Of a stretch of DNA of 64,000 nt, positions 30,146 to 60,484 are shown piece by piece. The first letter of the stretch is position 1. Each line of letters starts with the position of its first letter. The notes below the pieces were generated by a model. The model was given only the letters and a program-made list of their open reading frames with translations, was not told the origin of the DNA and did no database searches. The stretch comes from Macrocystis pyrifera. Its lineage: Eukaryota > Sar > Phaeophyceae > Laminariales > Laminariaceae. A program made the position numbers and the translations under genes. The DNA is taken from the NCBI GenBank assembly GCA_031763025.1, contig JASSKH010000009.1:5214512-5278511 (forward strand), in the 5' to 3' direction.

Positions 30146-30336
30146 CATGTCGTGTACATATATAACTGCAATTAATTGGCGACATAGCCCAAAGCCAACC
30201 AAACTAAATGTATTGGTGTAGGAAACGGTGAAGGATGTAATAATCGCGTTTATTTATGAATGTAATGTGAAACGTAAGATCGGGTGACGCAAGAGTAAGA
30301 ATGACATTCGTCTAATAATAAGAATAACATATTTCA

Positions 30337-30669
30337 TCAGTGTGGGGAGAGAGTGGAGTAGTGCTGGGCATGTGGATGATATACAACATACAGGCTGTTG
30401 TTTAAAGGAAGGTTTGGGACAGGAGAGAAAGCAGCAGTGCCGGCAACGACAACGGTTATGGAAATGTTGTATAGTTTGTTGCTGGGCGGCCGCGATTTCG
30501 ATGTAGCTAGCATAGGAGTTTGGATGAGACATGATATATATGTGTAAATAGTCTTCCAGGACGCTGTAGTAACGAGGCGGGAGGCCCAGAATGTGGATCT
30601 GTTCGCTGTTGAACCCGTTGGATATGTGTAGGAAGAAATAATCGTGGTTTTGGGAAATGTGGGAAACAA
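30337..30669 (-). CDS. OTU-like C-terminal segment in copy A
   Basis: The minus-strand frame ends LYNISITVVVAGTAAF, SLYVVYHPHAQHYSTL and a stop. The I-x-V strand followed by a hydrophobic strand and a final HYSTL resembles the last part of OTU deubiquitinase folds, where the catalytic His sits in an 'HY' motif. The Cys-containing N-terminal OTU motif was not found. The assignment is weak by itself but is supported by conservation in three copies. Confidence 0.4.
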   Translation of the reverse strand: MFPTFPKTTIISSYTYPTGSTANRSTFWASRLVTTASWKTIYTYISCLIQTPMLATSKSRPPSNKLYNISITVVVAGTAAFSPVPNLPLNNSLYVVYHPHAQHYSTLSPH

Positions 30670-31058
30670 TTTGTTTCCTTTCGTTCGTCCTGGATGGCGA
30701 CAATCTGCTTGGCGTACTGCTGCGGAATTCCGCGAAGCCCTGGAGCAGGCGAAATGGAAGGGAGTCTTTTTGCGCTTGATGACGATGTCTCCGTCTTTGG
30801 TGGTGGAGTCCGTCAGGCGGCAGTTGTAGCACTTGCCACGGACCTGGTCGAAGTAAACATATAGGGTGCGCGGGACGGGAGTGGCGTGCAGGGAATGGCG
30901 GGGGAGAGGGGGGGGCAGAGTTCATTATTTGTACTACTCTACAGCGGCACAACAGCACCACGTAGTCGCTCGCTATACGACGGCAGCAGCAGCAGCAGAA
31001 GCAGCAAGTACGTAATTTCATTGACGATACAGAAATATGTAGACACACAAGTGTACCG

Positions 31059-31380
31059 GCGTCCCCGGTGGCTTGGTAGGTGGTCCGCGTGCCTATCAAG
31101 ATCAATTTCGTGGGTTCAAATCTCACCGAGTGCATGCTCGTAGGGACTTTTTCTTGCATAAAAAATTGATAACGGAAAGCGCGAGAGCGTGAGTTAGCTA
31201 CATTGGATGAAAATCGATGAGCAGTGGGAATGCTGAACCCTATGCGCAACACAAAATAAAGGCAAGTACCGGGGGGGAAAAGGGACGACACCTGTGACCA
31301 CGGCTTGTCCAGAAGATCGTCGAGGGTAAAACCTCCTACGAGTGGGCTGGAAAGTAAAAGTGATGATGAAAAAAAAAAAA
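31059..31380 (+). mobile_element. tRNA-derived SINE copy 3, nested in zinc/OTU copy A
   Basis: Cleanest copy: GGCGTCCCCGGTGGCTTGG, A-box TGGCTTGGTAGG, B box GGGTTCAAATC, body AAGCGCGAGAGCGTGAGTTA, and an A-run tail (about 17 A) ending near 31386. The uninterrupted sequence at 59200-59215 in copy C shows the empty site. A GTAC-containing sequence flanks both sides, compatible with a short target duplication. Confidence 0.9.
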
Positions 31381-31619
31381 AAAAAAGTACAGTACAGTAC
31401 ACACACAAATCACGTCCAGCATGACGTACGGCAACAACGCAGCAGCACCACAAAAAAAATCGTTGACGATACAGAAATATATCAGATATACACACGCACA
31501 AGTTTAAGTGTCATAGCCCCACACAAATCATGTCCAGCATGATGTACGGCAACAACTCAGCAGCGCCACAAAACGACCAGGAAACACAATTATCCGAGTA
31601 CATACAAACATTCAGTGAA

Positions 31620-31640
31620 TATTGCGGCAACACTAAAAGC

Positions 31641-31676
<36 letters not shown>

Positions 31677-32760
31677 GCAGAAGCAGCAACGGATCGCCAC
31701 AGCGATGGCAGCAGCAGCATATGAAAAGAAGGGAGAAAAAAAGTATGTACCCCGAGGCCGTCCGAAAAGTATTTTCGGTACCTCACTATAGACCCACCTC
31801 CGCATGCTGTACGGCAACAACGCAGCAGCAGCATAGCAACAACACGAAATACGAGAAAAAGTAGTACGTACGCAAAATGCAGGAGCAAAACGACCAAAAT
31901 ATTTTTTTTACGTATAAAAAAAAACATTTGGGTACAAAAATGGCCAATAAAAACAATAATCCGCGTTGGCAGCAACCGCATACGTAGCAACGATATGAAA
32001 ATAAGGAAGAAAAAAAGTATGTACCCTGGTATGCCGCAATCGCAAAACCTACGGAATTTCATTGACGATACCGAAATATGTACACACAAAAGTGCAGCAT
32101 GATGTACGGCAACAAAAAACGCAACAGCACCACAGCAGCAACATAGCAACGATATATATGAAAATAACCAAGCCAAAAACGAGAAATTGCAGTACGTACG
32201 CAAAATGCAGGAGCAAAACGACAAAAAAAAAAAAATCACGTATCAAAAGGAACCATTTGAGTACAAAAACGACCAAGAAAAACAGTAATCCGAGTACATA
32301 CGTACGAACATTCAGTGGATATTGCGGCAGCATTAGCAGCAGCAGCAGCAGAAAGCAGCCACAGCATTAGCAGCAGCAGAAGCTGCAACGAATCGCCGCA
32401 GCGTTGGCAGCGTTGGCAGCAGCAGCAGCAGCAGCATAGCAACGATATGAAAATAAGGAAGAAAAAAAGCATGTACGCTGGTATGCCGCCATCGCAAAAC
32501 CTACGGAATTGACGATCCGAAAATATGTACGATTCCAGCATGATGCACGGCAACAACGCAGCAGCACTGCATACAGCAGCAGCAGCAATTGCACAGGAGC
32601 AGCAGGTGAACAGCACGGCAACAACGCAGCAGCACTACAGCAGCAGCGAGTGCACAGGAGAAGCAGGTGCACAGCAGCAGCAGCACTCATCGCGTGGCGC
32701 TGACAGCAGCAGCAGCAGCAGCGGCAGCCGAAAACGAGCAAAAAATGAGTACGTGAGGTA
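31620..32760 (-). repeat. CAG/CTG repeat array of copy A
   Basis: On the plus strand, many CAG runs separated by recurring spacers (GCAACGATATGAAAATAAGG, GGTATGCCGC(A/C)ATCGCAAAACC, ATTCAGTG(G/A)ATATTGCGGCA). The pattern is nested: CAG microsatellites embedded in longer tandemly reused spacers. It lies between a GTGAGT donor and the 3' coding segment of copy A, so it is probably intronic. Confidence 0.8.
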
Positions 32761-33778
32761 ACCAAAACATGTACACACAGAAATCGTGTGCATGCACCGA
32801 AAATGCACCACAGTAGCAGCTGCACTCACGTCGTTCGGTGCAGCGGTGACGGCGACAGCTGAATCCTCCGTTCCTTCGTTCACGTCCCGCAAACAGTTGT
32901 GCATGTGCGCATTCGCGTGCACTGTGTGTAAGAGGAGCCGACGCAACGCACGAAGGGGAAAGCACGAGCATGGATGAGTCAAAAAAAAAAAAAAAAAAAC
33001 GCTTTGACGTAGGATTGCATGCAAAAAGGCAATTGAAAACCCCCAAAAAACGTACTGGCAACATACAGCATGCACAATAGACGTAAGACACTCACCACTG
33101 TCAGCAGTCTCGAGGGAGTACGAGACAGTCCCTTCCTTGATCGGGCGAGCACAGAACTCGCAGTCGGTTGCCCTGTCAGGATGATCCCGCCACCACGCAC
33201 GTGAGATCCTTGCAGGTGGCGAAGGCCACGTTTTTGCCACCAGGCGCGGAGTTCTTGACCAAGTGCTGATCCGTGCACTGGTCGCAAACAACAGCCGGCA
33301 CCAGGTCGGTATTTGTCGTTGCCGCTCTCTTGCCAGAGGGCGAGGACCACGCGCCTCTCGACGAGGGGGAGGTGAGCTTAGGGGGCGTGGAGAAGGGAGA
33401 GGCGGGGGTTGCAGCACCAGCAGGTTCGCCACCGACAGCAGCAGCTTGGCTGCCGACAGCTGCACCTATCTATGCCGTTCGTCGAAGGCGAGACGGCTCT
33501 TTTAGGCGCCGTGCGAAGAGCTGTCTTTGGTTGGCAGTTTGCGGAAGAAGAAAGAAGAAAAGGTCGTTTGGCTGTTTGGCGAAGAAGAAAGAAGAAAGGT
33601 TGTTTGTGGCATTTCGGCTGTTTCAAAGAAGGAAGAAAGGTTGTTTGGCTGTTCGGCTGTTTCAAAGAAGAAGGGTTGTTTGCGAAGAGCTGTCTATCAG
33701 TCGGTCTGTCTGCCAAGAGCTAGCAAGTGACAACGACCTCAAAAATCGTAATTATAGTTGTATCTATATATATATATT

Positions 33779-34094
33779 TTTACTCATCACTTTCACTTTC
33801 CAGCCTAATTCGTAAGAGGTTTTTACCCTCGACGACCTTCTGGACAAGCCGTGGTCACAGGTGTCTTCCCTTCTCCCCCCCGGTACGTGCCTTTATTTTT
33901 TATCGCGCATAGGGTTCAGCATTCCCACTGCTCGTCGATTTTCATCGAATGTAGCTAACTCACGCTCTCGCGCTTTCCGCTAATCAATCCCTTTTATGCA
34001 AGAAAAAGCCCCTACGAGCATGCACTCGGTGAGACTTGAACCCACGAAATTGATCTTGATCGGCACGCGGACCACCTACCAAGCCACTGGGGAC
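33779..34094 (-). mobile_element. tRNA-derived SINE copy 4
   Basis: Reverse copy from GTCCCCAGTGGCTTGGTAGG to TGGAAAGTGAAAGTGATG. Its tail directly abuts the A/T-rich 5' leader of zinc/OTU copy A. Confidence 0.85.
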
Positions 34095-34103
34095 GCAGAT
34101 ATA

Positions 34104-34757
34104 CCTGGTATATGTATATACTTCAGTATAGCAACAAACCATCGTACCCCCTCGTAGGGGACGTGGCAGACACTTGAAAAGAACGAGCTGGAAAAAAAAG
34201 GAAAAAAAGAAAACACCACTAGTCGTCAACAGAGTAAGACTAAGAACCAAGGGAAAAATAACAGGCAAACCAAACAAATCACAAGGCATGCTCCAGGTGG
34301 CGGCAGCAGTTTATGGTACGAGTAGCACAGCCAGGGTCTCCCTGCTGGCCCGCCTGGTACCTTGCTACCCTGTCTGCCACCATCGTCCAGCGTTCGTCAA
34401 CTATGCCCGGCCCCTCGGCGTCAGACAGTACGAAACAAGCAAAGCAGGCTCGTCATCCACCCACGCCACACGACTCCTTCAATAAGGCTTATCAATCGGA
34501 GAAAGGAAGAGAAGTGAAAATCACATAGGGTCACCGCAAAGAAGACAATAAAATGAAATAAAAATAAACAAAAACAATAGGAAGACAAAGGAAGACCACG
34601 TTCGAACCAGCTGCACCAGTTGGTGGTACGAGTAGTATAGGCATGTTCTACTTCTTAGTCTGCCCGGTACCTGGCTACCCTATCTGCCATCTCCTTCCTA
34701 CTTTCGTCCACTGCAGTTTCCCTTCTACTCCTCTTCCCCCCCCTCTCCGCATTCCCA
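34104..34757 (-). repeat. 0.65-kb tail-repeat duplication, right copy
   Basis: Partner of 29326-29978. Homology ends at CTCTCCGCATTCCC, where this copy switches to ATGGCATTTAATTGCCCACT, the start of a different repeat block. Confidence 0.85.
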
Positions 34758-35396
34758 TGGCATTTAATTGCCCACTATGTGCTTACTGCATGTGTGTGTG
34801 TGTTCTTCACATTAAACCGTTCTTCTACTCGTCGACATCCAGCAAGCCCAGTGTCCGTGCTGATTCTTCACCCTAGAAAGATACGAGCTCTGTGGTCACA
34901 GACTACGACACAGATATAACACACCGTAATGCATTAATAGCCTACGCAATGCCATGCCTTCGCACTAGGTGCGGCCGACACAACATACATATATACATTC
35001 GCCAGCAACCAAAATACACCATAAAGAAAGAGAAGCAACGAAGACACCAAACCGAAAAAGAAAAAGAAAATGAGAAGAATCCCAAATAAATAAATAAAAT
35101 GGGAAGCCACAAAGCTCACACACATACTTACCCCGAGCATGAACCAAAAGGGACGTGCAAGGGGGAAGAAACGAGAAGGGAAAAGGGAACTATAATATGC
35201 ATCCCGGTGAACACTTAACTAAGTAAAACGAGAAATAATGAGTGGGCCAAAATACGCTCGTCACCCACCCACTATGTGGTACTTCTTTCATAGGGAAAAG
35301 AAGGGGAAAATATAGGAAAAAGTTAATTCATGGAAAAAAAATCAAAGCACCAAGCCAATACATACCGAACGGCCGCAGCAGTTGCACACGTGGCAA
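34758..35396 (-). repeat. 0.55-0.6-kb block duplicated in inverted orientation
   Basis: Contains an R1 arm (about 34795-34990) and continues through GCCGACACAACATACATATA, CCCAAATAAATAAATAAAAT and GGTGAACACTTAACTAAGTA to GAACGGCCGCAGCAGTTG. The same block lies inverted at 62700-63255. No gene seen within it. Confidence 0.8.
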
Positions 35397-35545
35397 CATA
35401 GTATCTCTGTAGCGTAGCTTTGTGACCACAGAACATCTTGCATCTCTTCTAGAGGACTGAAGATTCGGCACGGACACTGGTTGTGCTGGATGTCGACGGG
35501 CAGAAAGAATTTCAAGAACGGTTTAGTGTGAAGAACACACACAGG
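35380..35545 (-). repeat. R1 foldback arm
   Basis: Reverse arm (GTAGCTTTGTGACCACAGAA, GAAGATTCGGCACGGACACT, GGATGTCGACGGGCAGAAAG, GGTTTAGTGTGAAGAACAC). It forms an inverted pair with the arm at 34795. Confidence 0.75.
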
Positions 35546-35549
35546 GGCA

Positions 35550-36684
35550 TGGGCGCTCTCTATGCATCATGTACGGGCTATGATCCTGCCCACAGCAGTA
35601 TACAGCTTCCTGAAAGGTGTACTACAGCAATAGTGTGAGATACAGACTCCTATAAAACCGAGCAAAGAGACTACGAGTACATCAAATAAATTCCTAATTC
35701 CTGAAATGCGATGCCAATCGACAAAAGAGCGCAGAGCTCGCAACTTAACCCCCAAGTGTCTCTGAGAACTAGTTATGCAGTAACATTTATAGGCTGTTTT
35801 GATAGTCCCACCCATCGGTACAGGTACAGGATACACACATACTCCTGTACATATTCATGAATCGTACGAGGGGAAGACGGTCTAGGCCGGGTCTCCATCA
35901 ATTGGACGATGAGAGTGTTCTCCACCACCAGCCACAGTAGTAACTTCTCCAACCAGGGGCTGTGATCTTCCAAGGTACTCGTAAAACCTCCTTGTAGTTT
36001 GTCCCTGAATCTCGGCCTGCCTTTCACTTTTTTATTTTCATGTTGCACGCCTGGTACCTGCTACGCCATTCATTGCCTTAAATTTCCATTGATTCTAATA
36101 GTAATTGATCAAATTGCGCCATACCTGGTACAGTTTAACACGTAAACGGTAATGCGGTGTGTGTTCCGGGTAGCCGGGCCGCACTACCCAAGTTCCTGCG
36201 CGTAAAACAACGGGTATATCCGGCCACTGATGATACATACAGGTATCTATACTGCTGTAGTATTCCTGCCGAATACCTGCTTGTTCCCGTTTGGTCCGTT
36301 TACCGGACGAGGTACTGTTCTCCACGCTTAACGGCTCTTTACACCCGTCGACAACCAGCACGCTCAGTGCTTCACGTGTAGTACTTTTGGTGGTCTGCAT
36401 TTTGTTACTGCTACTGTATCGTGGATGTTATGTGGGCACCAACGCTCAACACTGATTACGCAAATAAAAAAATATCCTACATCGAGACGAATGCTCTGTG
36501 AACTCGGTGATCCACCACTCATTTTTGACAATGTGATCCACTAAACCAGGGGATCCACTAACAACGCATTAAAAATGTGGTCACAAATCCACGACGCAGG
36601 GATGACACTGCTGTACATTGTTGGACTGTTATGCAGCAATCAGGATGGACAATACGGACCCATATCATCGCTCTGGAGCCAGCG
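35550..36684. other. Unassigned stretch with a small R1 fragment
   Basis: No recognised gene. An R1 inner fragment occurs at about 36335-36380 (CCCGTCGACAACCAGCACG). A minus-strand open frame at 35773-36048 has no domain signature. Confidence 0.35.
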
Positions 36685-37012
36685 CGTCCCCGGTGGCTTG
36701 GTAGGTCAGGTGATGCGTGTGCGTACCATTACCAAGTTCGTGGGTTCGAGTCTCATCGAGTGCATACTCGCAGGCACCTGTTCTCGAATGAAAACGTGCT
36801 ATTGATATTAATAGTAGCGGAAAGCGCGAGAGCGTGGGCTAGCATAATTTCGACGAAAGAAACCGACGAGCAGGACGAATGCAGAACCCTTTGCGCGATG
36901 AGCATGAAGGCACGTAGCGGGGGACCACGACATATCCAGAAAATCTCTGAGGGTAAAACCCCCTACGCCTTTGCACAGGATGGAAGGTAAGAGCGATGAT
37001 CGGGAAAACAAA
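36685..37012 (+). mobile_element. tRNA-derived SINE copy 5 (diverged)
   Basis: Forward copy: GTCCCCGGTGGCTTGGTAGG, B box GTGGGTTCGAGTCTCATC, body AAAGCGCGAGAGCGTGGGCT. It is more diverged than copies 1-4, suggesting an older insertion. Confidence 0.8.
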
Positions 37013-37130
37013 AAACGAGAGGAGCGACATACATATTTTACACCAATAGCATGCGTTGAAAGAGAGAAAAACCAAGAAAAAAAACAAAACAAAAAACTAA
37101 TTGAATCAAAACGCTTCAGAGATCTCTAAA

Positions 37131-37512
37131 CGAGAAGTCTTGGTCACAGGTGCCGTCTCTCCTTCCCCCCGGTACGCGCCTTGATTTTCAGTGCGCGTAG
37201 CGTTTAAGATTCAGCATTCCCGCTGCTCGTCGACTTCATCGAATGTTGGTAACTTCCGCTCTGTCTTGCGCTTCCCGCTATCACTGGGCACCACCGCAGT
37301 AAATAAGACCTACGGTGCACACAAACACCTATATATTATATCTTTTTTTACGAACACTCTTTGGTCTTATTCACTATGGTGCACAATAATAGTAACATTT
37401 TTTCACGCAAAAAAAAGTCCCCACGAGTATGCAATCGGTGAGGCTTGAACCCTCGAAGTTGAGAAAGTACTATTAATAGGCACGCGGACCACCTACCAAG
37501 TCACCAGGGACG
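37131..37512 (-). mobile_element. tRNA-derived SINE copy 6, interrupted by a MITE-like insert
   Basis: Reverse SINE with head near 37512 (TCCCTGGTGACTTGGTAGG) and body running to about 37131. Between CGCTATCA and TAACATTTTTTCACGC lies about 110 bp with inverted ends (37284-37392). Diverged, like copy 5. Confidence 0.75.
37284..37392. mobile_element. Variant MITE inserted in SINE copy 6
   Basis: Ends CTGGGCACCACCGCAGTAAA and TTCACTATGGTGCACAATAA are inverted, and the interior (AATAAGACCTACGGT, CCTATATATTATA) matches the TTACGGGGG MITE family. The outermost bases differ, so it is a related subfamily or a diverged copy. Confidence 0.55.
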
Positions 37513-37894
37513 CGGGGGCTGCACGAAGCAAGCAATAATGTGTTACCGCAACCAGCCACATAAACATATCGTAGCGCAAGACTAGTTGTAGTACGAACGA
37601 AAGGAAAGGAAAGGCAAACCTACTCAACCGAAGACAGGTAGCCTTACCTATTTGTGGTACAAGTAGTATGGGCAGGTTTCAACTCTCACTGCTGTACTCC
37701 AGAGTATATATTTGGTGAAATACCCAGTAGTCTTAAGTATTTCGCTACCCCGTCTGCCGTCTCTTCCCGTGCTTTCGCCAACAACCGCGGGTTACCTACC
37801 ACTGCTGTTGCGCCCCCCCCCCACCCCCTGTACTGCTTGAAAAGAATGACTCAAAGAGCAGTCTCAGCCAGGAAAAACGAAAAAAAAAACCCAC

Positions 37895-37990
37895 CTCACT
37901 TGCCTCGACGGTGATTGCCGTCGACAGCCCCGGCAGGGTCGCAAATAGCAACCCTAACGCCAACGCCCAGGATCTTGCCGCAGGCACCAT
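37895..37990 (-). CDS. Candidate first exon encoding a signal peptide
   Basis: The minus-strand ATG at 37990 starts MVPAARSWALALGLLF then ATLPGLSTAITVEASE, a basic start, a hydrophobic core and an S-T-A cleavage-type site, followed immediately by a GTGGGT donor in phase 0. An in-frame upstream ATG at 38026 would add 12 residues. No downstream exon was identified in 35.5-37.8 kb, which is partly occupied by SINEs. A secreted-protein gene or a gene remnant are both possible. Confidence 0.4.
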
Positions 37991-37999
37991 GACACCAAC

Positions 38000-43379: not shown

Positions 43380-43706
43380 CTTTTTTGTTCTTTTTTAATC
43401 ATCACTTTTGTTTTCCAGCATAGCTCGTAGGAGATTTTACCCTCAGCGATTGTCGGGACAAGCCGTGGTCACAGGTGCCGTCCCTTCTCCCCCCCCCGGT
43501 ACGTGCTTTTAATTTTTGTCGCGCATAGGGTCCAGCATTCCCATGTCTTATCGATTTTCATCGAATGTAGCTAACACACGTTCTCGCGCTTTCCGCTTAT
43601 CAACTTTTATGTAAGAAAAGTCTCTACGAGCATGCACTCCGTGAGACTCGAACCCACAAAATTGATCTTGGTAAGCACGCGGACCACCTACCAAGCCACC
43701 GGGGAC
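43380..43706 (-). mobile_element. tRNA-derived SINE copy 7
   Basis: Reverse copy with head GTCCCCGGTGGCTTGGTAGG (about 43706), B box TGGGTTCGAGTCTCAC and a T-rich (minus-strand A-rich) tail against LINE B. Confidence 0.85.
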
Positions 43707-43756
43707 GTTATGGGAGGTACCCACACGCTCTGGCGTACCAACCTCTCCATTAATAG

Positions 43757-47250: not shown

Positions 47251-47327
47251 ACCATAGACAATTCGAAAGAGAAAAAGAAACAAGAGAAAAAAAAAAACAA
47301 AATATATACCTGGTATATAAATACAAC

Positions 47328-47620
47328 TATAATTACGAGTTTTGGGGTCGTTGTCACTTGCTAGCTCTTCGCAAACAGCCCTTCTTCTTTGAAACAGCCG
47401 AACAGCCGAACAACCTTTCTTCTTTCTTTTTTCTTCTTCGCAAACTGCCAACCAATAGACAGTTCCTCGCACAGCGCCTCGTAAAAGAGGCGTCTCGCCT
47501 TCGACGAACGGCATATATAGGTGCAGCTGTCGGCGGCCAAGCTGCTGCTGTCGGTAGCGAATCTGCTGGTGCTGCAACCCCCGCCTCTCCCTTCTCCACG
47601 CCCCCTAAGCTCACCTCCCC
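47328..47620 (+). repeat. 3.3-kb zinc/OTU unit, copy B, 5' part
   Basis: Leader (ACAACTATAATTACGAG), GAAACAGCCGAACAGCCGAA repeats and the Ala/Pro-rich start (GAAVGGQAAAVGSESAGAA), ending TCACCTCCCC where the copia element enters. The homologous uninterrupted sequence is at 56852-57215. Confidence 0.85.
47616..47620 (+). other. Target-site duplication, left (TCCCC)
   Basis: TCCCC precedes the 5' LTR and is repeated at 53881-53885 after the 3' LTR. Copies A and C have a single TCCCC at the corresponding point. Confidence 0.93.
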
Positions 47621-47888
47621 TGTTCGTTTGGATCGTTCCAGCAGCGACGGTTACAAGTTGTAGAGGGTTGCGTATATCTTCGCAGGCGTTATGTTGAATT
47701 ATGCCGTGTGTTCACGAGGAGAGTTTGAGCACTCCGTTCTCTACTCCGTTCTCTGCTCCGTTCTCTGCTCCGAGCTACGAGCTAGGCTCCGCTCTCTCTC
47801 CCCTCCTCTGTCCTCTAATACAACGATTATAAAGAAACTCATCAGACCACGTGATGGTCAGGGCATCCAGGCTTGGACTCTACGAACA
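47621..47888 (+). repeat. 5' LTR of the copia element
   Basis: 268 bp, starts TGTTCG and ends CGAACA (6-bp inverted termini, TG..CA). It contains tandem CTCCGTTCTCT units near 47736-47770 and a TATA-like ATTATAAAG near 47828, a probable promoter. Confidence 0.93.
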
Positions 47889-47929
47889 CACTAGTGCTCT
47901 TGAACGTTTGAGGTCAGGTACCAGACGCC

Positions 47930-49560
47930 CACGATGCCCTCGAAGGGATCGGCTCAAGAAGAGCGCGACTCTCCAAGTGACGTTGAAACGCTGCGACACG
48001 AGATCGAACTGGCGATGGAGAACAGCGAGGCGTCGATGCTGAACGCCATGAGGGAAATGATGGCCGAGTTCATGAGGAATAACGGTCGATCGAAGCCAGG
48101 CAGCGCTGAAGGCAGCGTTGCTGTAGGAGAAAGTCCAGCAGAGGTAGGAACCACTGCTGTAGGGGAAAGCCCAAGAGGGGCAGTATCCACTGCTGAAGTA
48201 CGAGAGACTACTGCTGTTGTTGAAGCAGGCATTGGTCGATCGGAGTCCGGCAGCGCTGAGGGTAGCGCTGCTGTAGGGGAGAGCCCACAAGGGGCAGTAC
48301 CCACTGCTGTAAGAGAGATTGCAGCAGAAGAGGAGACAAATTTGCGTGAGGGCGCCTCGCCAGATTTCGGAGCAACTGGACGCGGAGGAACCGCGTTGCC
48401 TGTCGAGGTTGGCCCACCGAGGGGTCAGCCAGACCAGCACGGGAGGACAGGACGATGGGGTGCATACCCCGGCGGTGAGTTGGGTGGTGGATTTGATCTG
48501 CCTCTATCGCACCATTTGGCCTTCAAACACACTCCTGTGCCATCGTTTAGTGGGCTAAAATCTGAGTTCAACCCCTGGACAAGAGACGCTCGGTATTACG
48601 CCAAAGGAGTTGGTTTCTTGTCTGTTTTCGTGTCGGATCCACCACAGTACATTCCCGTAGGGGAATTAGACACCGAAAACTCGATGCTTGTCGCTAGGGG
48701 GTTTAGCCGCGAAAGTGTGCACAGGCATACACTGGCATGGAATTTCCTGTCGACGGCCCTCAAGAGCAAGAGCGATAAAAGCATTTTGCACCGGTGTACC
48801 TCGCCGAGGCAAGCGTGGGACGCTCTCCTTGCGTGGTACGGCCCTCAGACGACGGGGGCCAAATCAAACCTCTCCCGACGCCTTAACAGTTTTAAGATGG
48901 CGCCGGGGAGCAACCCGCTCGAGGAGATGGGCAGGATCGAGGATCTTGCCGCGGAAATGCGAACAGCAGGAATGTCAGTAGACGACCACATGCTGTACAC
49001 CATATTTATTGACGCTCTGCCTGCCGAATACGAAGTGGAGGCTCGGAACCTGGCATCACGTGACAGCATCGGCCGTGATGACATCATCAAGGCTGTTCGA
49101 GAACGGCATCACCGACTTTCTGGAAACAGGAAGAAAGGGTCCAACGCTGGCCACGCAGGCCATGCTATGTACGCCGGCGGCGGCGGCGGTGGCGGTGGTC
49201 GCCGGAAAGGTGGAGGAAATGGCAAAGAAAAAGGTGGACGACGGGGTCACGGACGAGGCGGTAGAGGCTCCAACGAGGACGGTGGTGGCTCGGCCGCGGC
49301 TGCTGGTGGCAATGGTAATGACGCCAAAGCCGCCAGCGGAAGTACTCCAGTCGGCAAGTGCCATAGGTGTGGCAAGAAGGGCCATTGGAGGAGCGAGTGT
49401 ACGGCGAAGCTATGCAGTCGATGCCAGGGACGCGGGCACTCTGCCGATGCCTGTCCCATGTCCACGGATCGATGCAGTCGATGCAACGGACCGGGGCACG
49501 CTGCTGATGTCTGCCCCTCGTCGAAAGAAGAAGCTGTCATGGCGGTGACGAGTAAGGATG
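47930..49560 (+). pseudogene. gag: copia gag region (fossil)
   Basis: Starts at an ATG at 47934. It has an acidic N-terminus with degenerate repeats around VGESP, a capsid-type region, a Gly-rich basic stretch, and three CCHC zinc knuckles near 49360-49515 (CHRCGKKGHWRSEC, CSRCQGRGHSADAC, CSRCNGPGHAADVC). Three knuckles is more than most copia gags carry. Confidence 0.9.
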
Positions 49561-49649
49561 GGGCAAGGGACGACGACCCGGAAAAAGGTACGGTCCAGGC
49601 CTCAGCTTTCAAGGCCGAAGAGACAGGCAAGTGGAGCGATGGTTCGGGG

Positions 49650-52600
49650 GAAGGGGAGTCTGCTTGGCAGGTAGGAGACGAGGCTTGGATATGTGATAGT
49701 GGTGCGTCTACTCACATGACGCCCTCCGCTGACTGCATGATCAATTATAGAGAATGCAACTTGACTCTCCGAATCGCTGACGGATCCACCCGAGCGATCG
49801 AAGGTTACGGTGACGTGAGTGTTGTCTTTCGGTCCGGAAACGGTCCCGTGCAAATGCTGCTTACGAACGTTGCGCACGTGCGGAGCTCCGCTACCACTTA
49901 TTTTCCCTGCCCACTCTGGTCAAAAACGACCATACTTTCGAAGGGCGCCCCACGGGGGTTGTAATCAGGCTCAAGTCGGAGCGTTCGATCGTGTTCCCGT
50001 TGAGTGGGACTCTCTACAGCCTGTACGGCTACCGGGTCGACCGCAGTTGTGGGGAAAATGCCTGTGCTGTACTCGCCCCGGGACAACTGCCCAACAAGTC
50101 TGCAATCAACATCAACGATTTCCACTGCGCTGCTGGACACTCCCACGAGGTACTACTTCGCGAGACCGCGGAGCAGCAAGGGATTGTCCTCGAGGGAAAG
50201 CTGCTGGAGTGCAAGGGGTGCTCCATGGCAAAGGGTCTCCGCAAAGGTATCAAGCAGTCCACACACACACGAGCAGATAAGAAGCTCGGGAGGGTTTTTG
50301 TGGATTTGAGTGGACCAAAGGTGGTAGAGTCTCTCGGGCGGAAGCGGTATACTCTCATCGTGCGCGACGATTTTTCACGGTATACGTGGGTGTACTTTAT
50401 GCGCCACAAGTCGGACGCCGCGGAAATGTTTGAGCTGTTCCTTGCGGATTCTCGTGCAGACGGTGTACCACCGTGGTGGTAATCGTCCGATCTGATGGGG
50501 GTGGTGAATTCCGCGGGGGAAAGTTTGACGACCTGTGTAGATCACGAGGGATCAAGCAGGAATTCACGACGGCCGACAGTCCCCAATACAATGGAGTAAC
50601 AGAGCGCGCGCTAGGTTTGATAGAGACGGCCGCAATGGCGGGCCGAATCCAGGCTCAAGAGCTTTTACCTGGCGCGAAACTCCCGGCCAGGCCGTCGTTG
50701 TGGGCGGAAGCGTCCCACTGGGCGTGTGACGCCTTGAACCACACAGCAACAATAGCTAACCCGCAGAGCAAGTCGCCACATGAGATGTGGCATGGTAGCC
50801 CCCCCCCGGTAGTACTACTGCCCTTCCTCAAGCCTGGCTATTGCAAGGTGAAGAGGGAAAACAAGTCACAGGCGAAAGCGCAAGAGTGCTTTTACCTCGG
50901 CCCTGCAACAAACTACCCCGGTGATTCAGTACGAGTGCTGACAAAGAGCCGCACTGTGCTAATAACGCGCAATGTCACCTGGCAACGCGTGTCGCCTGCA
51001 CCACCTGTACCTGCCCAGGCGAATGACTCCCTGTCTACGGAAAAGGGGGGGTCAGAGGCAGACGACGTGAGCACGTCGGATCGAGGTGGTGGGGGGGGGG
51101 GGTGGATGAGCTGGACAACGGTCTGGCTCACTTGAACGACCTCGACGTGACGTGGGGTTTTGACTGGACGCGTTTATGCAGGAGGGCGCACAGCAGGCAC
51201 CTGCCGCCGGCGAGACCGGCGGCGAAACACCCGAGACGATGGGTTCGTCTCAAGGGGGCGCCGTGGACGCCTACTCGGTCCCGACAGGGAGGGCCGAAAC
51301 AGCCGAGACGATGGATTCGTCTCAAGGGGGCGCCGTGGACGCCTCCTCGGTCCCAACAGGGAGGGTCGGAAACGACCCGGGCGCTGCATCAGCCTCCGAC
51401 ACCGGGCAAGGGGACGGTGAGGATCCCCCCGCAGTGCTGTCGGGGAGGCCAGCACACGAGCTCAGCAGCTGGGGCCGGCTCCCCCCGACTGTACGGGGCC
51501 GGACCCGGGGTCAAAGCCAACGCCCGGAGGGTGAACCTGCTGTGCACCAGATAAGGATGGATGGATGAAAGGACCGCAGACGCGCTGCTTGCGGCAGCGT
51601 ACGAGTCGTGGACGAAGCCTGGGAGAATGCTGGATCGTACGCCCTGGACGACGGAGGACGCAGTGGCTTTGATGGCCGGAGGACCTGCTGCGGAGAACAA
51701 AGGGGAGTTGAGCGTGTGCATGCCGAGTGGTTTCCCGGAAGACGTAGAACCGCCCCCACAGTCCGTAGCAGATGCAGAGCGTTCTCAATACAAAGCGGCG
51801 TGGCACAAGGCCATGAAAATTGAGTTGGACGGTAACAAAACGACCGGTACGTACGAAGCCGCGACACCGCCAAAAGGGCGGAAACCTGTAGGTGCGAAGT
51901 GGGTGTTTACCTACAAGACGGATAAGGATGGCTTGATAGTAAAGACAAAAGCCAGACTTGTGGCCAAGGGTTTTAGCCAGGTGCAGGATGTAGATTATTT
52001 TCAAACGTTTGCACCGACTCCCTCGTCAGCGTCAGTTAAAATTCTGGCGGCTGTTGCAAATGAACATGGTTCAAAGATTTTTCATCTAGACGTCGCACAA
52101 GCTTTTGTTCGCGCGAAACTCGACGCCGAGATATACATGAAACTGCCCGGTGGGTGTGGTGACATGCCAGGAAAGATCGTCCGCCTAAACAGATCACTGT
52201 ATGGTCTAAAGCAGAGCGGACGGTAGTGGTCCGGATTATTGGTAGAGACCGTGGTAGAGTACGGAATGGAGCAGTGTAGGTCTGACCCGTGTGTGTTTCG
52301 CATGGTTGTGGACGGCAAGGTAGAACTGATCATGGCCGTTCATGTAGATGACATCGTGATCGCAGGATCGGATGAGACATGTAGAGATTTCCATGCCGCG
52401 CTAGCTATGAAATTTCCCACGAATAACCTTGGCGAACTGACTTGGTACACTGGTTGTGCTTTCTAACGCGACTGGGAACTGGGGACATTGGAGATTACGA
52501 AGAAGGCGTTCATTGAGAGCATGCTGAATCGTTTTGGTGTTAACTCATCCTCTGATATCCCCGCGACCCCCGGTGTGGAACTAGGTCCAAGAAAGGAGGG

Positions 52601-53300
52601 CGAACTTGGAGTAGACTGGCCGTACAGGGAGGCTGTGGGCAGCTTGATGTGGCTGTCGACCATGACGAGGCCGGACATCTCGAACGCTGTGCGTGCTGTG
52701 GCGCGCCACTCCCACAACCCAACGGAGAGGCACTGGAAGGCAGTTTTGAAGATTATGGCTTACCTCCATGGGACCAGGTTTATGGGATTGACTTTTGTAC
52801 GGGGCTCGGGTTTGGATTTGACTGCGTATAGTGATGCTGATTATGCGGATAAGTCGAACGATAGGCGCTCGGTATCGGGGACGGTAATTACCCTAGGGGG
52901 TGCGGCCGTCAGTTGGGCAAGTAGTACGCAGAGGTGTGTTACGTTGTCGACAGCAGAAGCAGAGTATGTCGCCCTGGGTGAAGGGGTGAAGGAAGCTTTG
53001 TTTACGGGCCCGGTGTTGTCATTTATCTGTCCAGAGCTAAGCGGATCATGTGTCCGGGTTTTCGAGGATAACCAGGGGGCCATAGCGTTGGCTGAAAACC
53101 CTCTTAGGTCTGCTCGGAGTAAGCATATCGACGTGCTTTTTAATTTTGTCAGAGAGCTACTTCGTGCTAAGAAGATCGACATTCAGTTCGTAGCTTCGGA
53201 AGAGCAGCACGCGGATATTTTGACGAAATCCCTTCCTGCGACCCCTTTTAAGTCTCATCGTAGGTTCTTGTTGAATCTGCCTTTGGAGGGTGAGTGAGGG
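49650..53300 (+). pseudogene. pol: copia pol region (fossil): PR-IN-RT-RH
   Basis: Protease signature WICDSGASTHMT near 49690. Integrase zinc-binding HH-CC region near 50120-50220 and catalytic core near 50290-50620 (FVDLSGP, RSDGGGEFRG, NGVTERALG). Reverse transcriptase near 51800-52470 (GAKWVFTYKTD, SLYGLKQ, VHVDDIVIAG). RNase H near 52800-53200 (YSDADYADK, STAEAEYVAL, DNQGAIAL). Several breaks; not functional. Confidence 0.92.
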
Positions 53301-53597
53301 GTATGAGCATTATTCGATGAGTACCATGTTTGAGTGATGCAAGGAAAAATTTGTCAGGTCGCCAACCCTGCGCTACTTTGAGGGGCATGGGGGAGTAGGG
53401 CATCCCTTGGCATTTTATTTTCTGGCCATGGTCATCGTTTGGAATGCGGCCGTTGTTTCAATGGCAATGGTTTGGAGTATATGTGTTATACAGGGGGGTC
53501 TGACCCGGTGGTCGGGTTTCCTCCTGCGGGACTGTCGTTGGCTGTTCTTAGGTCCTAGCAAGTCTTGAATGTCTTTTCGGTCTCGTCACTGCTGTGA

Positions 53598-53611
53598 AGA
53601 GCCAGGGAGGG
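53598..53611 (+). other. Polypurine tract of the copia element
   Basis: The purine-rich AGAGCCAGGGAGGG abuts the 3' LTR, the position where plus-strand priming occurs in this group. I could not match the sequence after the 5' LTR to a known tRNA primer. Confidence 0.7.
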
Positions 53612-53880
53612 TGCTCGTTTGGATCGTTCCAGCAGCGACGGTTACAAGTTGTAGAGGGTTGGTTGCGTATATCTTCGCAGGCGTTATTATGAATTATGTC
53701 GTGTGTTCACGAGGAGAGTTTGAGCACTCCGTTCTCTACTCCGTTCTCTGCTCCGTTCTCTGCTCCGAGCTACGAGCTAGGCTCCGCTCTCTCTCCCCTT
53801 CTCTGTCCTCTAATACAACTATAAAGAAACTCATCAGACCACGTGGTGGTCAGGGCATCCAGGCTTGGACTCTACGAACA
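53612..53880 (+). repeat. 3' LTR of the copia element
   Basis: 269 bp, direct repeat of 47621-47888 with a handful of substitutions and small indels. Confidence 0.93.
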
Positions 53881-54579
53881 TCCCCCTCGTCGAGAGGCGC
53901 GTGGTCCTCGCCCTCTGGCAAGAGAGCGGCAACGACAAAGACCGACCTGGTGCCGGCTGTTGTTTGCGACCAGTGCACGGACCAGCACTTGGTCAAGAAC
54001 TCCGCGCCTTGTGGCAAAAACGTGGCCTTCGCCACCTGCAAGGATCTCACGTGCGCTGGTGGCTGGATCATCCTGACAGGGCAACCGACTGCGAGCTCAG
54101 TGCTCGCCCGATCAAGGAAGGGACTGTCTCGTACTCCCTCGACACTGCTGACGGTGGTGAGTGTCTTATGTCTTTTGTGCATGCTGTATGTTGCCAGTAC
54201 GTTTTTTTTTGGGGGTTTTCAATTGCCTTTTTGCATACAAACCTACGTCAAAGCGTTTTTTTTTTATTTTACTCATCCATGCTCGTTCTTTCCCCTTCGT
54301 GCGTTGGGTCAGCTCCTCTTACACACAGTGCACGCGAACGCGCACATGCACAGCTGTTTGCGGGACGTGAACGAAGGAACGGAGGATTCTGCTGTCGCCG
54401 TCACCGCTGCACCGAACGACGTGAGTGCTGCTGCTACTGTGGTGCATTTTCGGTGCACACGATTTCTGTGTGTACATGTGGTTTTGGTGACCCTACTCGC
54501 TCATTTTGCTCGCTTCGCAATTTCAAGTAAAAAAAAAACACATCCCTAAAGATCCCGTCTCCCAGATTGCTAAACCTCC

Positions 54580-55635
54580 TCGGCTGCCGCTGCTGCTGCT
54601 GCTGCTGTCAGCTCCACGCCACCATGAGTGCTGCTGCTGCTGTGCACCTGCTTCTCCTGTGCACTCGCTGCTGCTGTAGTGCTGCTGCGTTGGTGCCGTG
54701 CTGTGCACCTGCTGCCCCTGTGCGCTTGTTGCTGCTGTATGCAGTGCTGCTGCGTTGTTGCCGTGCATCATGCTGGAACTGGGAAGCGTACATATTGTCG
54801 GATCGTCAATAAAATTCCGTAGGTTTTGCGATGGCGGCATACCAGGGTACATGCTTTTTTTCTTCCTTATTTTCATATCGTTGCTATGCTGCTGCTGCTG
54901 CTCTGCTGCTGCCAACGCCGCGGCGACTCGTTGCAGCTTCTGCTGCTGCTAATTCTGTAGCTGCTGCTGCTGCTGCTGCTGCTGCTAATGCTGCCGCAAT
55001 ATCCACTGAATGTTCGTATGTACTCGGATTACTGTTTTTCTTGGTCGTTTTTGTACCCAAAAGGTTCTTTTGATACGTGATAAAAATATTTTTGTCGGTC
55101 GTTTTGATCCTGCATTTTGCGTACGTACTGCTTTTTCTCGTTTTTGGCTTGGTTATTTTCATATCGTTGCTATGCTGCTGCTGCTGTGGTGCTGCTGCGT
55201 TGTTGCCGTACAACATGCTGCACTTGTGTGTGTACATATTTCGGTATCGTCAATGAAATTCCGTAGGTTTTGCGATTGCGGCATACCAGGGTACATACCT
55301 TTTTTCTTCCTTATTTTCATATCGTTGCTATGCTGCTGCCAACGCGGATTATTGTTTTTATTGGCCGTTTTTGTACCCAAATGTTTTTTTTGATACGTAA
55401 AAAAAACATTTTGGTCGTTTTGCTCCTGCATTTTGCGTACGTACTACTTTTTCTCGTATTTCGTATTTTGTTGCTATGCTGCTGCTGCGTTGTTGCCGTA
55501 CAGCATGCGGAGGTTTATCTATAGTGAGGTATCAAAAATACTTTTCGGACGGCCTCGGGGTACATACTTTTTTTTTCTCTTTTTTTCATATCGTTGCTAT
55601 GCTGCTGCTGCCAACGCCAACGCCGTGGCGATCCG

Positions 55636-55675
<40 letters not shown>

Positions 55676-55995
55676 TAGTGCTGCCGCAATATTCACTGAA
55701 TGTTTGTATGTACTCGGACAATTAATTGTGTTTCCTGGTCGTTTTGTGGCGCTGCTGCGTTGTTGCCGTACATCATGCTGGACATGATTGTGTGTGTCTA
55801 TTGTGCGTGTGTACCTATTTCTGTATCGTCAATGATTTTTTTTGTGGTGCTGCTGCGTTGTTGCCCTACATCAAGCTGGACGTGTTTTGTGTGTGTACTG
55901 TACTACACTTGTGTGTGTACATATTTCTGTATCGTCAATGAAATTACGTAGTTGCTGCTTTTTTCTGCTGCTGCTGCTGCTGCCGTCGTATAGCA
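54580..55995 (+). repeat. CTG repeat array of copy B
   Basis: Runs of 3-12 CTG separated by reused spacers: TTATTTTCATATCGTTGCTA (five times), CATACCAGGGTACAT, GCCGCAATATCCACTGAATG and GTTGTTGCCGT. Long open frames here (poly-Leu, Ala or Cys) are a product of the triplets. Confidence 0.85.
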
Positions 55996-56279
55996 AGCGA
56001 TTACGTACTGCTGCTGCTGTGCCGCTGTAGAGCAGTACAAATAATGAACTCTGCCCCCCCCCCCCGCCATTCCCTGCACGCCACTCCCGCCCCGCGCACC
56101 CTATGTTTACTTCGACCAGGTCCGTGGCAAGTGCTACAACTGCCGCCTGACGGACTCTACCATCAAAGACGGAGACATCATCATCAAGCGCAAAAAGACT
56201 CCCTTCCATTTCGCCTGCTCCAGGGCTTCGCGGAATTCCGAAGCAGTACGCCAAGCAGATTGTCGCCACCCAGGACGAA

Positions 56280-56616
56280 CGAAAGGCAACAAATCGTTTC
56301 CCACATTTCCCAAAATCACGATTATTTCTTCCTACACATATCCAACGGGTTCAACAGCGAACAGATCCACATTCTGGGCCTCCCGCCTCGTTACTACAGC
56401 AGCCTGGAAGACTATTTACATATCATGTCTCATCCAAACTCCTATGCTGGCTACATCGAAATCGTGGCCGCCCAGCAACTATACAACATTTCCATAGCCG
56501 TTGTCGTTGCCGGCACTGCTGCTTTCTCTCCTGTCCCAAACCTTCCTTTAAACAACAGCCTGTATGTTGTATATCGTCCACATGCCAAGCACTACTCCAC
56601 TCTCTCCCCGCACTGA
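56280..56616 (+). CDS. OTU-like C-terminal segment in copy B
   Basis: Best-preserved version: QIVSHISQNHDYFFLHIS, ILGLPPRYYSSLEDYLHIM, SYAGYIEIVAAQQLYNISI, SLYVVYRPHAKHYSTLSPH and a stop. The layout (an E-I-A-A helix after an aromatic residue, an I-x-V strand, a final strand and HY) resembles the C-terminal half of OTU cysteine proteases. The upstream CYNC...HFAC segment is in a different frame, so an intron, a frameshift or gene death separates them. Confidence 0.45.
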
Positions 56617-57656
56617 TGAAATATGTTATTCTTATTATTATTAGACGAATGTCATTCTTACTCTTGCGTCACCCGATCTTACGCTTCACATTACATTCAT
56701 AAATTTACGCGATTATTACTTCCTTCACCGTTTCTTACACAAATATATTTAGTTTGGTTGGCTTTGGGCTATGACGCCAATTGCAGTTACATGTACAAGA
56801 CACAACGGAATACCCACTCCGAAGGAAAGCCTTGTATATATATATATATATAAATACAACTATAATTACGATTTTTGAGGTCGTTGTCACTTGCTAGCTC
56901 TTGGCAGACAGACCGACTGATAGACAGCTCTTCGCAAACAGCCCTACTTCTTTGAAACAGCCGAACAGCCGAAACATCCTTTCTTCCTTCTTTGAAACAG
57001 CCGAAATGCCAAACAACCTTTTCTTCTTTCTTCTTCCGCAAACTGCCAACCAATAGACAGCTCTTCGCACGGCGCCTAAAAGAGCCGCCTCGCCTTCGAC
57101 GAACGGCATAGATAGGTGCAGCTGTCGGCAGCCAAGCTGCTGCTGTCGGTGGCGAACCTGCTGGTGCTGCAACCCCCGCCTCTCCCTTCTCCACGCCCCC
57201 TAAGCTCACCTCCCCCTCGTCGAGAGGCGCGTGGTCCTCGCCCTCTGGCAAGAGAGCGGCAACGACAAAGACCGACCTGGTGCCGGCTGTTGTTTGCGAC
57301 CAGTGCACGGATCAGCACTTGGTCAAGAACTCCGCGCCTGGTGGCAAAAACGTGGCCTTCGCCACCTGCAAGGATCTCACGTGCGTGGTGGCGGGATCAT
57401 CCTGACTGGGCAACCGACTGCGAGTTCTGTGCTCGCCCGATCAAGGAAGGGACTGTCTCGTACTCCCTCGAGACTGCTGACAGTGGTGAGTGTTTTACGT
57501 CTATTGTGCATGCTGTATGTTGCCAGCACGTTTTTTTGGGGGTTTTCAATTGCCTTTTTGCATACAATCCTACGTCAAAGCGTTTCTTTTTCTTTTTGAC
57601 TCATCCATGCTCGTGCTTTCCCCTTCGTGCGTTGCGTCGGCTCCTCTTACACACAG

Positions 57657-57748
57657 TGCACGCGAACGCGCACATGCACAACTGTTTGCGGGACGTGAAC
57701 GAAGGAACGGAGGATTCAGCTGTCGCCGTCACCGCTGCACCGAACGAT
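57657..57748 (+). CDS. Exon-like block of copy C
   Basis: A 92-bp segment between TTACACACAG and GTGAGTGCTG. Its open frame (NAHMHNCLRDVNEGTEDSAV, then AVTAAPND) joins in frame with the segment ending SYSLETADS before the donor at 57486. Conserved in all three copies, with His and Cys spaced for metal binding after the upstream CEFC. Confidence 0.5.
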
Positions 57749-57849
57749 GTGAGTGCTGCTGCTACTGTGGTGCATTTTCGGTACATGCACACGATTTCTG
57801 TGTGTACATGTTTTGGTGACCCCACGTACTCATTTTTTGCTCGTTTTCG

Positions 57850-58141
57850 GCTGCCGCTGCTGCTGCTGCTGCTGCTGTCAGCTCCACGCCATGAGTGCTG
57901 CTGCTGCTGTGCACCTGCTTCTCCTGTGCACTCGCTGCTGCTGTAGTGCTGCTGCGTTGTTGCCGTGCTGTGCACCTGCTGCTCCTGTGCAATTGCTGCT
58001 GCTGCTGTATGTAGTGCTGCTGCGTTGTTGCCGTGCATCGTGCTGGAAGCGTACATATTTTCGGATCGTCAATTCCGAGGGTTTTGCGATGGCGGCATAC
58101 CAGGGTACATGCTTTTTTTCTTCCTAAATTTCATATCGTTG

Positions 58142-58176
<35 letters not shown>

Positions 58177-58916
58177 ACACTGCCAACGCTGCCAACGCTG
58201 CGGTGATTCGTTGCAGCTTCTGCTGCTGCTAATGCTGTGGCTGCTTCTGCTGCTGCTGCTGCTAATGCTGCCGCAATATCCACTGAATGTTCGTATGTAC
58301 TCGGATTACTGTTTTTCTTGGTCGTTTTTGTACCCAAATGGTTCCTTTTGATACGTGAAATTTTTTTTTTTGCAGTTTTGCTCCTGCATTTTGCGTACGT
58401 ACTGCAATTTCTCGTTTTTGGCTTGGTTGTTTTCATGTATGTCGTTGCTATGCTGCTGCTGTGGTGCTGCTGCGTTGTTGCCGTTCATCATGCTGCACTT
58501 TTGTGTGTACATATTTCGGTATCGTCAATGAAATTCCGTAGGTTTTGCGAATGCGGCATACCAGGGTACATACTTTTTTTTCTTCCTTATTTTCATATCG
58601 TTGCTACGTATGCTGCTGCTGCCAACGCGGATTATTGTTTTTATTGGCCATTTTTGTACCCAAATGGTTTTTTTTGATACGTAAAAAAAAAAAAATTGGT
58701 CGTTTTGCTCCTGCATTTTGCGTACGTACTACTTTTTCTCGTATTTCGTGTTGTTGCTATGCTGCTGCCGCGTTGTTGTCGTACAGCATGCGGAGGTGGG
58801 TCTATAGTGAGGTACCAAAAATACTTTTCGGACGGCCTCGGGGTACATACTTTTTTTCTCCCTTCTTTTCATATCGTTGCTATGCTGCTGCTGCCAACGC
58901 TGTGGCGATCCGTTGC

Positions 58917-58970
<54 letters not shown>

Positions 58971-59295
58971 TAGTGCTGCCGCAATATTCACTTAATGTTT
59001 GTATGTACTCGGATAATTGTGTTTCCTGGTCGTGTTGTGGCGCTGCTGCGTTGTTGCGGTACATCATGCTGGACATGATTTGTGTGGGGCTATGACACTT
59101 AAACTTGTGCGTGTGTACATATTTCTGTATCGTCAATGATTTTTTTTGTGGTGCTGCTGCGTTGTTGCCGTACATCATGCTGGACGTGATTTGTGTGTGT
59201 ACTGTACTACACTTGTGTGTCTACATATTTCTGTATCGTCAATGAAATTACGTACTTGCTGCTTCTGCTCCTGCTGCTGCCGTCGTATAGCAAGC
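57850..59295 (+). repeat. CTG repeat array of copy C
   Basis: Same architecture as copy B. The longest pure run is about 18 CTG units at 58914-58968. Spacer words and order match the other copies while individual CTG runs differ in length. Confidence 0.85.
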
Positions 59296-59399
59296 GATCA
59301 CGTGCTGCTGTTGTGCCGCTGTAGAGTAGTACAAATAATGAACTCTGCCCCGCCCCCTCCCCCGCCATTCCCTGCACGCCACTCCCGCCCCGCGCACCC

Positions 59400-59921
59400 T
59401 ATATGTTTACTTCGATCGGGTCCGTGGCAAGTGCTACAACTGCCGCCTGACGGACTCCACCACCAAAGACGGAGACATCATCATCAGGCGCAAAAAGACT
59501 CCCTTCCATTTCGCCTGCTCCAGGGCTTCGCGGAATTCCGAAGCAGTACGCCAAGCAGATTGTCGCCATCCAGGACGAACGAAAGGAAACAAATTGTTTC
59601 CCACATTTCCCAAAACCACGATTATTTCTTCCTACACATATCCAACGGCCACAACAGCGAACAGATCCACACATCTGGGCCTCCCGCCTCGTTACTACAG
59701 CGTCCTGGAAGACTATTTACATATATATCATGTCTCATCCAAACTCCTATGCTGGCTACATCGAAATCGCGGCCGCCCAGCAACTATACAACATTTCCAT
59801 AACCGTTGTCGTTGCCGGCACTGCTGCTTTCTCTCCTGTCCCAAACCTTCCTTTAAACAACAGCCTGTATGTTGTATATCATCCACATGACAAGCACTAC
59901 TCCACTCTCTCCCCACACTGA
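59400..59921 (+). pseudogene. CYNC zinc segment and OTU-like C-terminus, copy C
   Basis: The zinc segment (CYNCRLTDSTTKDGDIIIRR then TPFHFAC; a C-x2-C and H-x2-C arrangement) and the terminal segment (SYAGYIEIAAAQQLYNISIT, HYSTLSPH, stop) are both present, in different frames. Confidence 0.45.
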
Positions 59922-60484
59922 TGAAATATGTTGTTCTTATTATTAGACTAATGTCATTCTTACTCTTACGTCACTCGATCTTACGTTTCACATTACATTC
60001 ATAAATAAACGCGATTATTACTTCCTTCACCGTTTCTTACACAAATACATTTAGTTTGGTTGGCTTTGGGCTGTGTCGCCAATTAATTGCAGTTATATGT
60101 ACACGAAACGACGGAATACCCACTCCGAAGGAAAGCCTTGTATATAGATATATCACAACAAACCATCGTGCCCCCCCCCGCAGGGGATCTGGCAGACACT
60201 TGAAAAGGAGCTGAAAAGAAGAAGCATGCATCACGTTCGTTCGTGCATCAGTACATCATCGTCGGAAATATAATTGCGCTCATTTTCGATATTAGACTCC
60301 AAACGGTATTATATTATCGTCCAGAGTGTTACGTGTGAGCACCCCCCCCAAATTTGTTTTTGTCCTTTCAACCTATAAAATGCCGTTCGTTATGCTTTAC
60401 GAGTAGTGTATTAATAATAGTACAGCAGTAGTAGTGGTTTTTCCTGCAATGACGAGATTCTGTCTTGTTGCTTTTCTCGCTAGA

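Follow-up and report, generated by a model that had tools for sequence, protein, structure and literature searches.

What kind of element is the 3.3-kb unit that occurs three times in a 64,000-nucleotide stretch of the Macrocystis pyrifera genome (assembly GCA_031763025.1, contig JASSKH010000009.1, positions 5,214,512 to 5,278,511; the whole stretch is referred to below as the window)? We conclude, with a probability of roughly 95%, that its copies A, B and C are non-autonomous, internally deleted Helitrons derived from a Helitron of ~11.5 kb in the same genome. As read from its sequence, this source Helitron carries, upstream, a zinc-binding gene that appears to contain introns, together with a large gene encoding a Rep/HUH endonuclease, a Pif1-type helicase and a C-terminal OTU domain. 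An earlier note on this DNA had described a zinc-and-OTU layout belonging to no named family and had proposed either a recently amplified host gene or an unrecognised element with a gene on board. The second proposal is the one borne out—the element is a truncated Helitron with a Rep-helicase-OTU partner—and the puzzling layout is settled as an abundant transposon family whose partner can be identified.

The evidence for the partner comes from the window's own genome (537,376,219 bases in 223 contigs), in which a search with the Pfam OTU family found 16 places. The OTU-like tail of copy B matches 10 of them (L029–L038) at E 9e-68 or better, with 92.7% amino acid identity over 110 residues in L029–L033; five of the 16 places gave nothing credible against this tail. 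The partner regions fetched around five OTU places (L045–L049) include unbroken long frames of 1,646 amino acids in L045 and 1,623 in L046; L047, L048 and L049 are frame-broken. Both intact proteins match the Pfam families PIF1 (4e-57 and 2e-57), Helitron_like_N (5e-38), Pif1_2B (5e-13) and OTU (~8e-9). The 11 Pfam hits of these two open reading frames include no reverse transcriptase, and no apurinic/apyrimidinic (AP)-type endonuclease or VTD family at E ≤ 0.01. The N-terminal part of the partner protein matches Helraiser (PDB 7lcc), which we take to be the bat Helitron transposase, at E 3e-97, with the best stretch at query 53–721; a match to transposon proteins was the outcome that the earlier note had said would reassign the family. 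Partner RGLVHAHI and YLYKY align to Helraiser RGLPHAHI and YLFKY, presumably the HUH motif and the catalytic tyrosines. In the partner OTU domain, DGACLLRA aligns to DGNCLYRA of OTUD1 (E 8.9e-9), a region that we assume to surround the catalytic Cys, and HYSTL lies near the C-terminal end. The domain is complete, with a Cys-region motif and a C-terminal His.

How does the short unit relate to this long one? Copy C from position 59583 matches L045 from 7580 (91%), and ~5.1 kb that lies in L045 between this match and the preceding one at 2228–2444 is absent from the unit; the missing stretch begins at the zinc gene's end and reaches into the OTU domain. On the 5' side the unit lacks a further ~400 bp, where the zinc gene's start codon probably lies. 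Because the partner carries the zinc and OTU parts separately and the unit lacks these ~5.1 kb, the two parts stem from separate genes, and the break in frame at 59578–59583 is the deletion junction. They are not one protein; the deletion joined pieces of two neighbouring Helitron genes. Both ends of the element are retained in the unit, and it is at these ends that a transposase is expected, by analogy, to act. The 3' end CCGAAGGAAAGCCTTG followed by TA is present in 5/5 partners (L045–L049), and the unit's 5' end is present in both partners read far enough (L051 for L049, L052 for L046); L050 begins inside the element. The two partners that were measured are 11,507 and 11,653 bp long, and in L045 the 5' end of another unit directly follows the partner. 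The features of the unit in the window are as follows.

30142–33764, minus strand: copy A of the non-autonomous Helitron; its final 26 bases are gone at the start of long interspersed nuclear element (LINE)-like DNA
47320–47620, plus strand: copy B, 5' part as far as a copia insertion
53886–56834, plus strand: rest of copy B, with the conserved 3' terminus CCGAAGGAAAGCCTTG at its end
56853–60140, plus strand: copy C, the complete 3,288-bp unit, both ends located
57200–57485, plus strand: copy C, exon 1 of the zinc gene of the Helitron in decayed form (VCDQC.., CEFC..), with a possible donor GTGAGT at 57486
57657–57748, plus strand: exon 2 remnant in copy C (HANAHMHNC..), with a possible donor GTGAGT at 57749
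57849–59336, plus strand: presumed intron in copy C, separating exons 2 and 3, rich in repeats and with CTG arrays, longer in the partner at C209 than in the unit
59353–59578, plus strand: exon 3 remnant in copy C (CYNC..HFAC), 85% identical to L045 2228–2444
59578–59583, plus strand: ~5.1-kb internal deletion junction in copy C, with different genes on either side
59583–59921, plus strand: last ~110 codons of the Rep-helicase-OTU gene and its stop in copy C, with one frame break
60114–60140, plus strand: 3' terminus GAATACCCACTCCGAAGGAAAGCCTTG of copy C, with two small predicted stems; TA follows

Self-comparison of the window recovered the three copies where the earlier note had placed them, at identities over aligned bases of 94.1% (A–B), 96.4% (A–C) and 94.0% (B–C). 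Their shared plan is also as it described: CxxC segments, GTGAGT sites, a short exon-like block, CTG arrays (themselves probably noncoding), a CYNC..HFAC segment and an OTU-like end. Copies B and C stand head to tail with a TA run between them. Copy B is divided by a copia long terminal repeat (LTR) element at 47621–53880, which has TCCCC on each side and whose gag and reverse transcriptase match Pfam; the uninterrupted sequence is present in C. The LTRs of this Ty1/copia-type element are ~95% identical and its open frames are broken into several, and its reverse transcriptase found no useful relatives in a viral contig collection. Copy A carries a ~330-bp insert (31056–31384) resembling a short interspersed nuclear element (SINE), with a tRNA-like end recognised by eye. 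The OTU-like end is a single open frame in copy B (56284–56616) and has a one-base insertion in copy C. The lack of one continuous frame had been put down to introns, decay or both, and apparent introns, decayed exons and the deletion junction are indeed all present. An Rfam search of the window at the gathering threshold gave no useful match.

The OTU identity of the tail is certain only because of the complete domain in the genome partner, and it would be weak from the window alone. The open frame of copy B (last 111 codons) matches Pfam OTU, the sole family found, at E 0.016, short of the curated cut-off, and the frame of copy C at E 0.049. A read-through version of the tail matched no Pfam family, and the other window frames of the unit matched no family or gave one chance-level match. 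The best PDB matches of the copy B tail are two OTU2 chains (E 0.31 and 1), relatives sought in viral and genome contig collections yielded nothing useful, and a single-sequence AlphaFold model with a predicted local distance difference test score of 39 was not used. What remains of the domain in the window copies is its later part, without the Cys region. The "OTU-like" C-terminus holds, through the 92.7% identity of the copy B tail to part of a complete domain. In profile searches OTU was recovered (weakly in the window, at ~8e-9 in the partner), and no Pfam family was found for the zinc part.

Is the zinc-binding gene real? To judge from the alignments, the partner's upstream zinc-binding gene, with its apparent introns, survives in decayed form in the unit as the CxxC, CEFC and CYNC..HFAC segments. 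Partner exon 3 reads GGKCYNCRLTNSIIKEGDIIIKRKKTPFHFACSRASRK... with the same stop in 4/5 copies; in L048 it is frame-shifted near its end, and in L049 stop codons lie shortly before the exon 3 segment. Exons 1 and 2 are each followed by GTGAGT, in the unit as in the partner. Exon 1 of L050, the sole partner copy translated there, has a frame interruption near an A run, and exon 1 of the unit shows small length differences from the partner. Between copy C and the partner, synonymous and nonsynonymous changes number 8 and 1 in CEFC (binomial P 0.0002), 8 and 8 in VCDQC (P 0.05), and 9 and 10 in the 38 codons of CYNC (P 0.03). Pooled, the three segments have 25 synonymous and 19 nonsynonymous changes (P 2e-5), all these values being rough because the segments were picked after inspection. 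The wider exon 3 stretch has 11 and 18, and the OTU tail of copy B differs from the partner by 7 and 8 (P 0.06). This synonymous excess supports a real zinc gene in the partner lineage. Partner exon 3 matched no Pfam family, the zinc segments matched none or gave one chance-level match, nothing fell below E 0.2 against solved structures, and an exact CYNC 20-mer found nothing useful in the viral contig collection.

Among the window copies themselves there are few changes, and these appear roughly neutral, with no clear sign of upkeep as genes. For the OTU tail, counted over its final 65 codons in phase with the stop, synonymous/nonsynonymous changes number 1/6 (A–B), 0/3 (A–C) and 1/5 (B–C), against an expected nonsynonymous share of ~0.73. 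The CEFC frame has 0/5, 0/1 and 0/6. The exon 2 frame shows the opposite trend (2/1, 2/0 and 2/1).

How abundant is the family, and where does it insert? Exact matches in the whole genome number 1,120 for the 5' end, 558 for the 3' end and 803 for the internal deletion junction; reversed controls gave 0 in each case. The ends of the element are fixed. A 1,001-base query from copy C returned 1,533 first-look candidates, and among the matches listed from the best 40 of these, 40 of 41 are at least 95% identical. A 1-kb Rep query gave 28 matches from 27 candidates (27 scored), of which 11 span the whole query with at least 95% identity. L045–L049 are ~99% identical in long aligned blocks and L035–L037 ~96%, and the units are 94–98% identical to C; because of this higher mutual identity, some RepHel (Rep-helicase) copies seem more recent than the bulk of the non-autonomous copies. 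A separate OTU place, L040 (C127:3027785), is 43.5% identical to the copy B tail (E 7e-16), and 3 kb upstream, at C127:3024797, the DNA has a Rep-like match; by sequence, the two are probably a second, diverged OTU-bearing Helitron.

Flanks were compared in 33 stretches, namely 26 of L001–L028, L045–L049 and two window regions; L001 and L008 were set aside because they are copies in the window itself. The fetched loci share a single 5' end, [A/G]ATACAACTATAATTACGATTTTTG, and a single 3' end, CCGAAGGAAAGCCTTG, mostly beside differing DNA. The exceptions are L017 and L027, which share flanks, and L010 and L014, which lie in the same repeat; one LINE site and one SINE tail recur as flank types. 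Distinct 5' flanks end in TA in 29/30 cases and distinct 3' flanks begin with TA in 29/29 (the near-identical L017 and L027 taken as two, tandem neighbours included), against a TA share of 5.1% among the window's dinucleotides. Six exact head-to-tail junctions occur in the same sample, and five of 32 distinct 5' flanks were flagged as tandem. A reading of the (TA)n that follows the 3' end as a retroposon tail is ruled out by TA sites of many kinds.

Could the unit instead be a zinc-finger/OTU host gene, recently amplified by segmental and tandem duplication? The head-to-tail arrangement of B and C, the apparently retained introns and the CxxC and OTU-like frames would suit such a gene, and the shared flanks of L017 and L027 indicate that some copies did spread by segmental duplication. 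However, fixed ends at TA with mostly differing flanks, 803 exact copies of one deletion junction, the absence of clear selection among the window copies, and the separation of the zinc and OTU parts into two genes in the partner all argue against it, and we regard the host gene as very improbable. Even less probable is a LINE-mobilised element copied via RNA, with 3' stems and a (TA)n tail. The terminal 3' stems followed by variable TA runs resemble such an element, but the partner protein has Rep and helicase domains and no reverse transcriptase among its Pfam hits, intron-like regions are kept, the 3' flanks of L046 and L047 have no TA run, and head-to-tail joins are exact. Chance frames in satellite-like noncoding DNA, to which the CTG arrays, broken frames and neutral-looking differences among A, B and C might point, can likewise be dismissed, given the pooled synonymous excess of the zinc segments and the tail's close identity to part of a complete OTU domain.

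Several observations weigh against the Helitron reading or narrow it. The sample consists of those copies that best matched a 5' query, 40 of its 1,533 candidates having been scored, and ends were counted only where the end pattern still fitted. The sole non-TA 5' flank is a variant tandem join in L024. The sites are TA runs, so insertion at A^T that duplicates nothing would look just like one with a 2-bp TA duplication; the loci examined yielded no clean empty site. The ends, [A/G]ATACAAC...CCTTG, have neither 5'-TC nor CTRR-3', and the 3' stems predicted for copy C, two in its final ~30 nt, are only 4 bp each.

Under the Helitron reading, and by analogy with the mechanism of Helraiser, the partner's RepHel protein, supplied in trans, would nick the conserved ends, peel off one strand and insert this single strand at A^T within TATA sites. 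Tandem copies might arise when an end is bypassed, or through circles; the head-to-tail copies fit either route, and end bypass or circular intermediates are reported for other Helitrons in parts of PMC4067079 and PMC5148889, the latter also giving, in part, background on the RepHel mechanism. The zinc gene, by its sequence, would be spliced from three exons. The OTU activity may shield the transposase or cofactors from ubiquitin-dependent loss, much as a passage of PMC9741609 suggests that VTD deubiquitinases of Helitrons protect transposition proteins. We hold, somewhat short of even odds, that the partner lineage inserts at A^T like Helitron1 while having neither TC nor CTRR, and that the intron-bearing zinc gene next to its Rep-helicase-OTU gene is under selection, perhaps as part of the transposition machinery.

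Other repeats share the window with the unit. A ~320-bp SINE-like repeat, its tRNA-like end judged by eye only, occurs at 25746–26068, 27533–27835, 31056–31384, 33777–34095 and 43392–43707, and its tail adjoins the Helitron TA run at 6 of 61 distinct flanks, as if one of the two elements favoured the ends of the other. A LINE 3' region with the TA-rich palindrome ATATACC[A/T]GGTATAT lies at 29316–29349, 34099–34132, 47304–47318 and 60141–60223; the Helitron has entered it in both orientations (A; B–C) and also in L002, L004 and L018. As a specific target this palindrome is ruled out, with only 3/32 distinct 5' flanks flagged at it. Its core TACCNGGTA is found in 12 places in the 64 kb (e.g., 16239, 20085, 29319, 46860 and 61283), which seems above expectation, judged without a chance control.

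Where does the family belong among known transposons? On sequence features it is placed in the Helitron superfamily and no lower: it has Rep/HUH with a tyrosine pair, a Pif1-family helicase, ends common to unit and partner, and no terminal inverted repeats. In copy C the inverted match fell within shuffles for the outer 60 and 150 bases, and for the outer 300 it equalled the largest of 300 shuffles and was located internally. The TA flanks agree with the A–T insertion of Helitron1, to which a TA duplication would appear identical. It is not a canonical Helitron1, because TC and CTRR are absent; not a Helentron by the endonuclease test, because no endonuclease is recognisable; and not a typical Helitron2, because terminal inverted repeats are lacking. 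In terms of sequence it is a new family of a known kind, its ends without canonical TC/CTRR, and it was not reported in the literature searched for a named match (Repbase not covered). It adds a well-defined case in which RepHel is fused to an OTU domain and the zinc gene stands apart, together with ends, sites and copy numbers. For genome annotators the loci are to be masked, not called OTU or zinc-finger genes. The complete partner OTU domain is a ready subject for activity tests, which transposon OTU domains had not undergone according to a portion of PMC9741609.

OTU domains in Helitrons are already known, as sections of PMC2836005, PMC4067079 and PMC9741609 indicate, and the main text of a transposable element paper on Ectocarpus (PMC12477816, taken in part) lists 13 Helitron families with 0 occurrences of OTU. 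Ginger1, as partly described in PMC2836005, also has a C-terminal OTU on its transposase but differs in its Gypsy-like DDE integrase, terminal inverted repeats and CCGG/CCGT duplications, none of which is seen in the partner or unit. Fusarium non-canonical, Helitron2-like Helitrons share ends without CTRR and reported joined-end copies, whereas they have asymmetric terminal inverted repeats, which were not found in copy C (PMC5148889, relevant part). Helentrons and zebrafish Helitrons, which carry OTU or VTD deubiquitinase domains according to excerpts of PMC4067079 and PMC9741609, are alike in joining RepHel to OTU-type genes or domains, in having non-autonomous relatives and in their reported tandem arrays; however, the endonuclease and VTD family are not among the partner's Pfam hits, and Helentrons use a TT site (PMC5148889, in part) where the Macrocystis family uses TA. 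Helraiser shares the RepHel architecture, with its HUH-type and tyrosine-pair motifs aligned to those of the partner, whereas the partner protein has an OTU domain fused to its C-terminus and the partner element has an extra zinc gene and ends of its own kind, without TC/CTRR.

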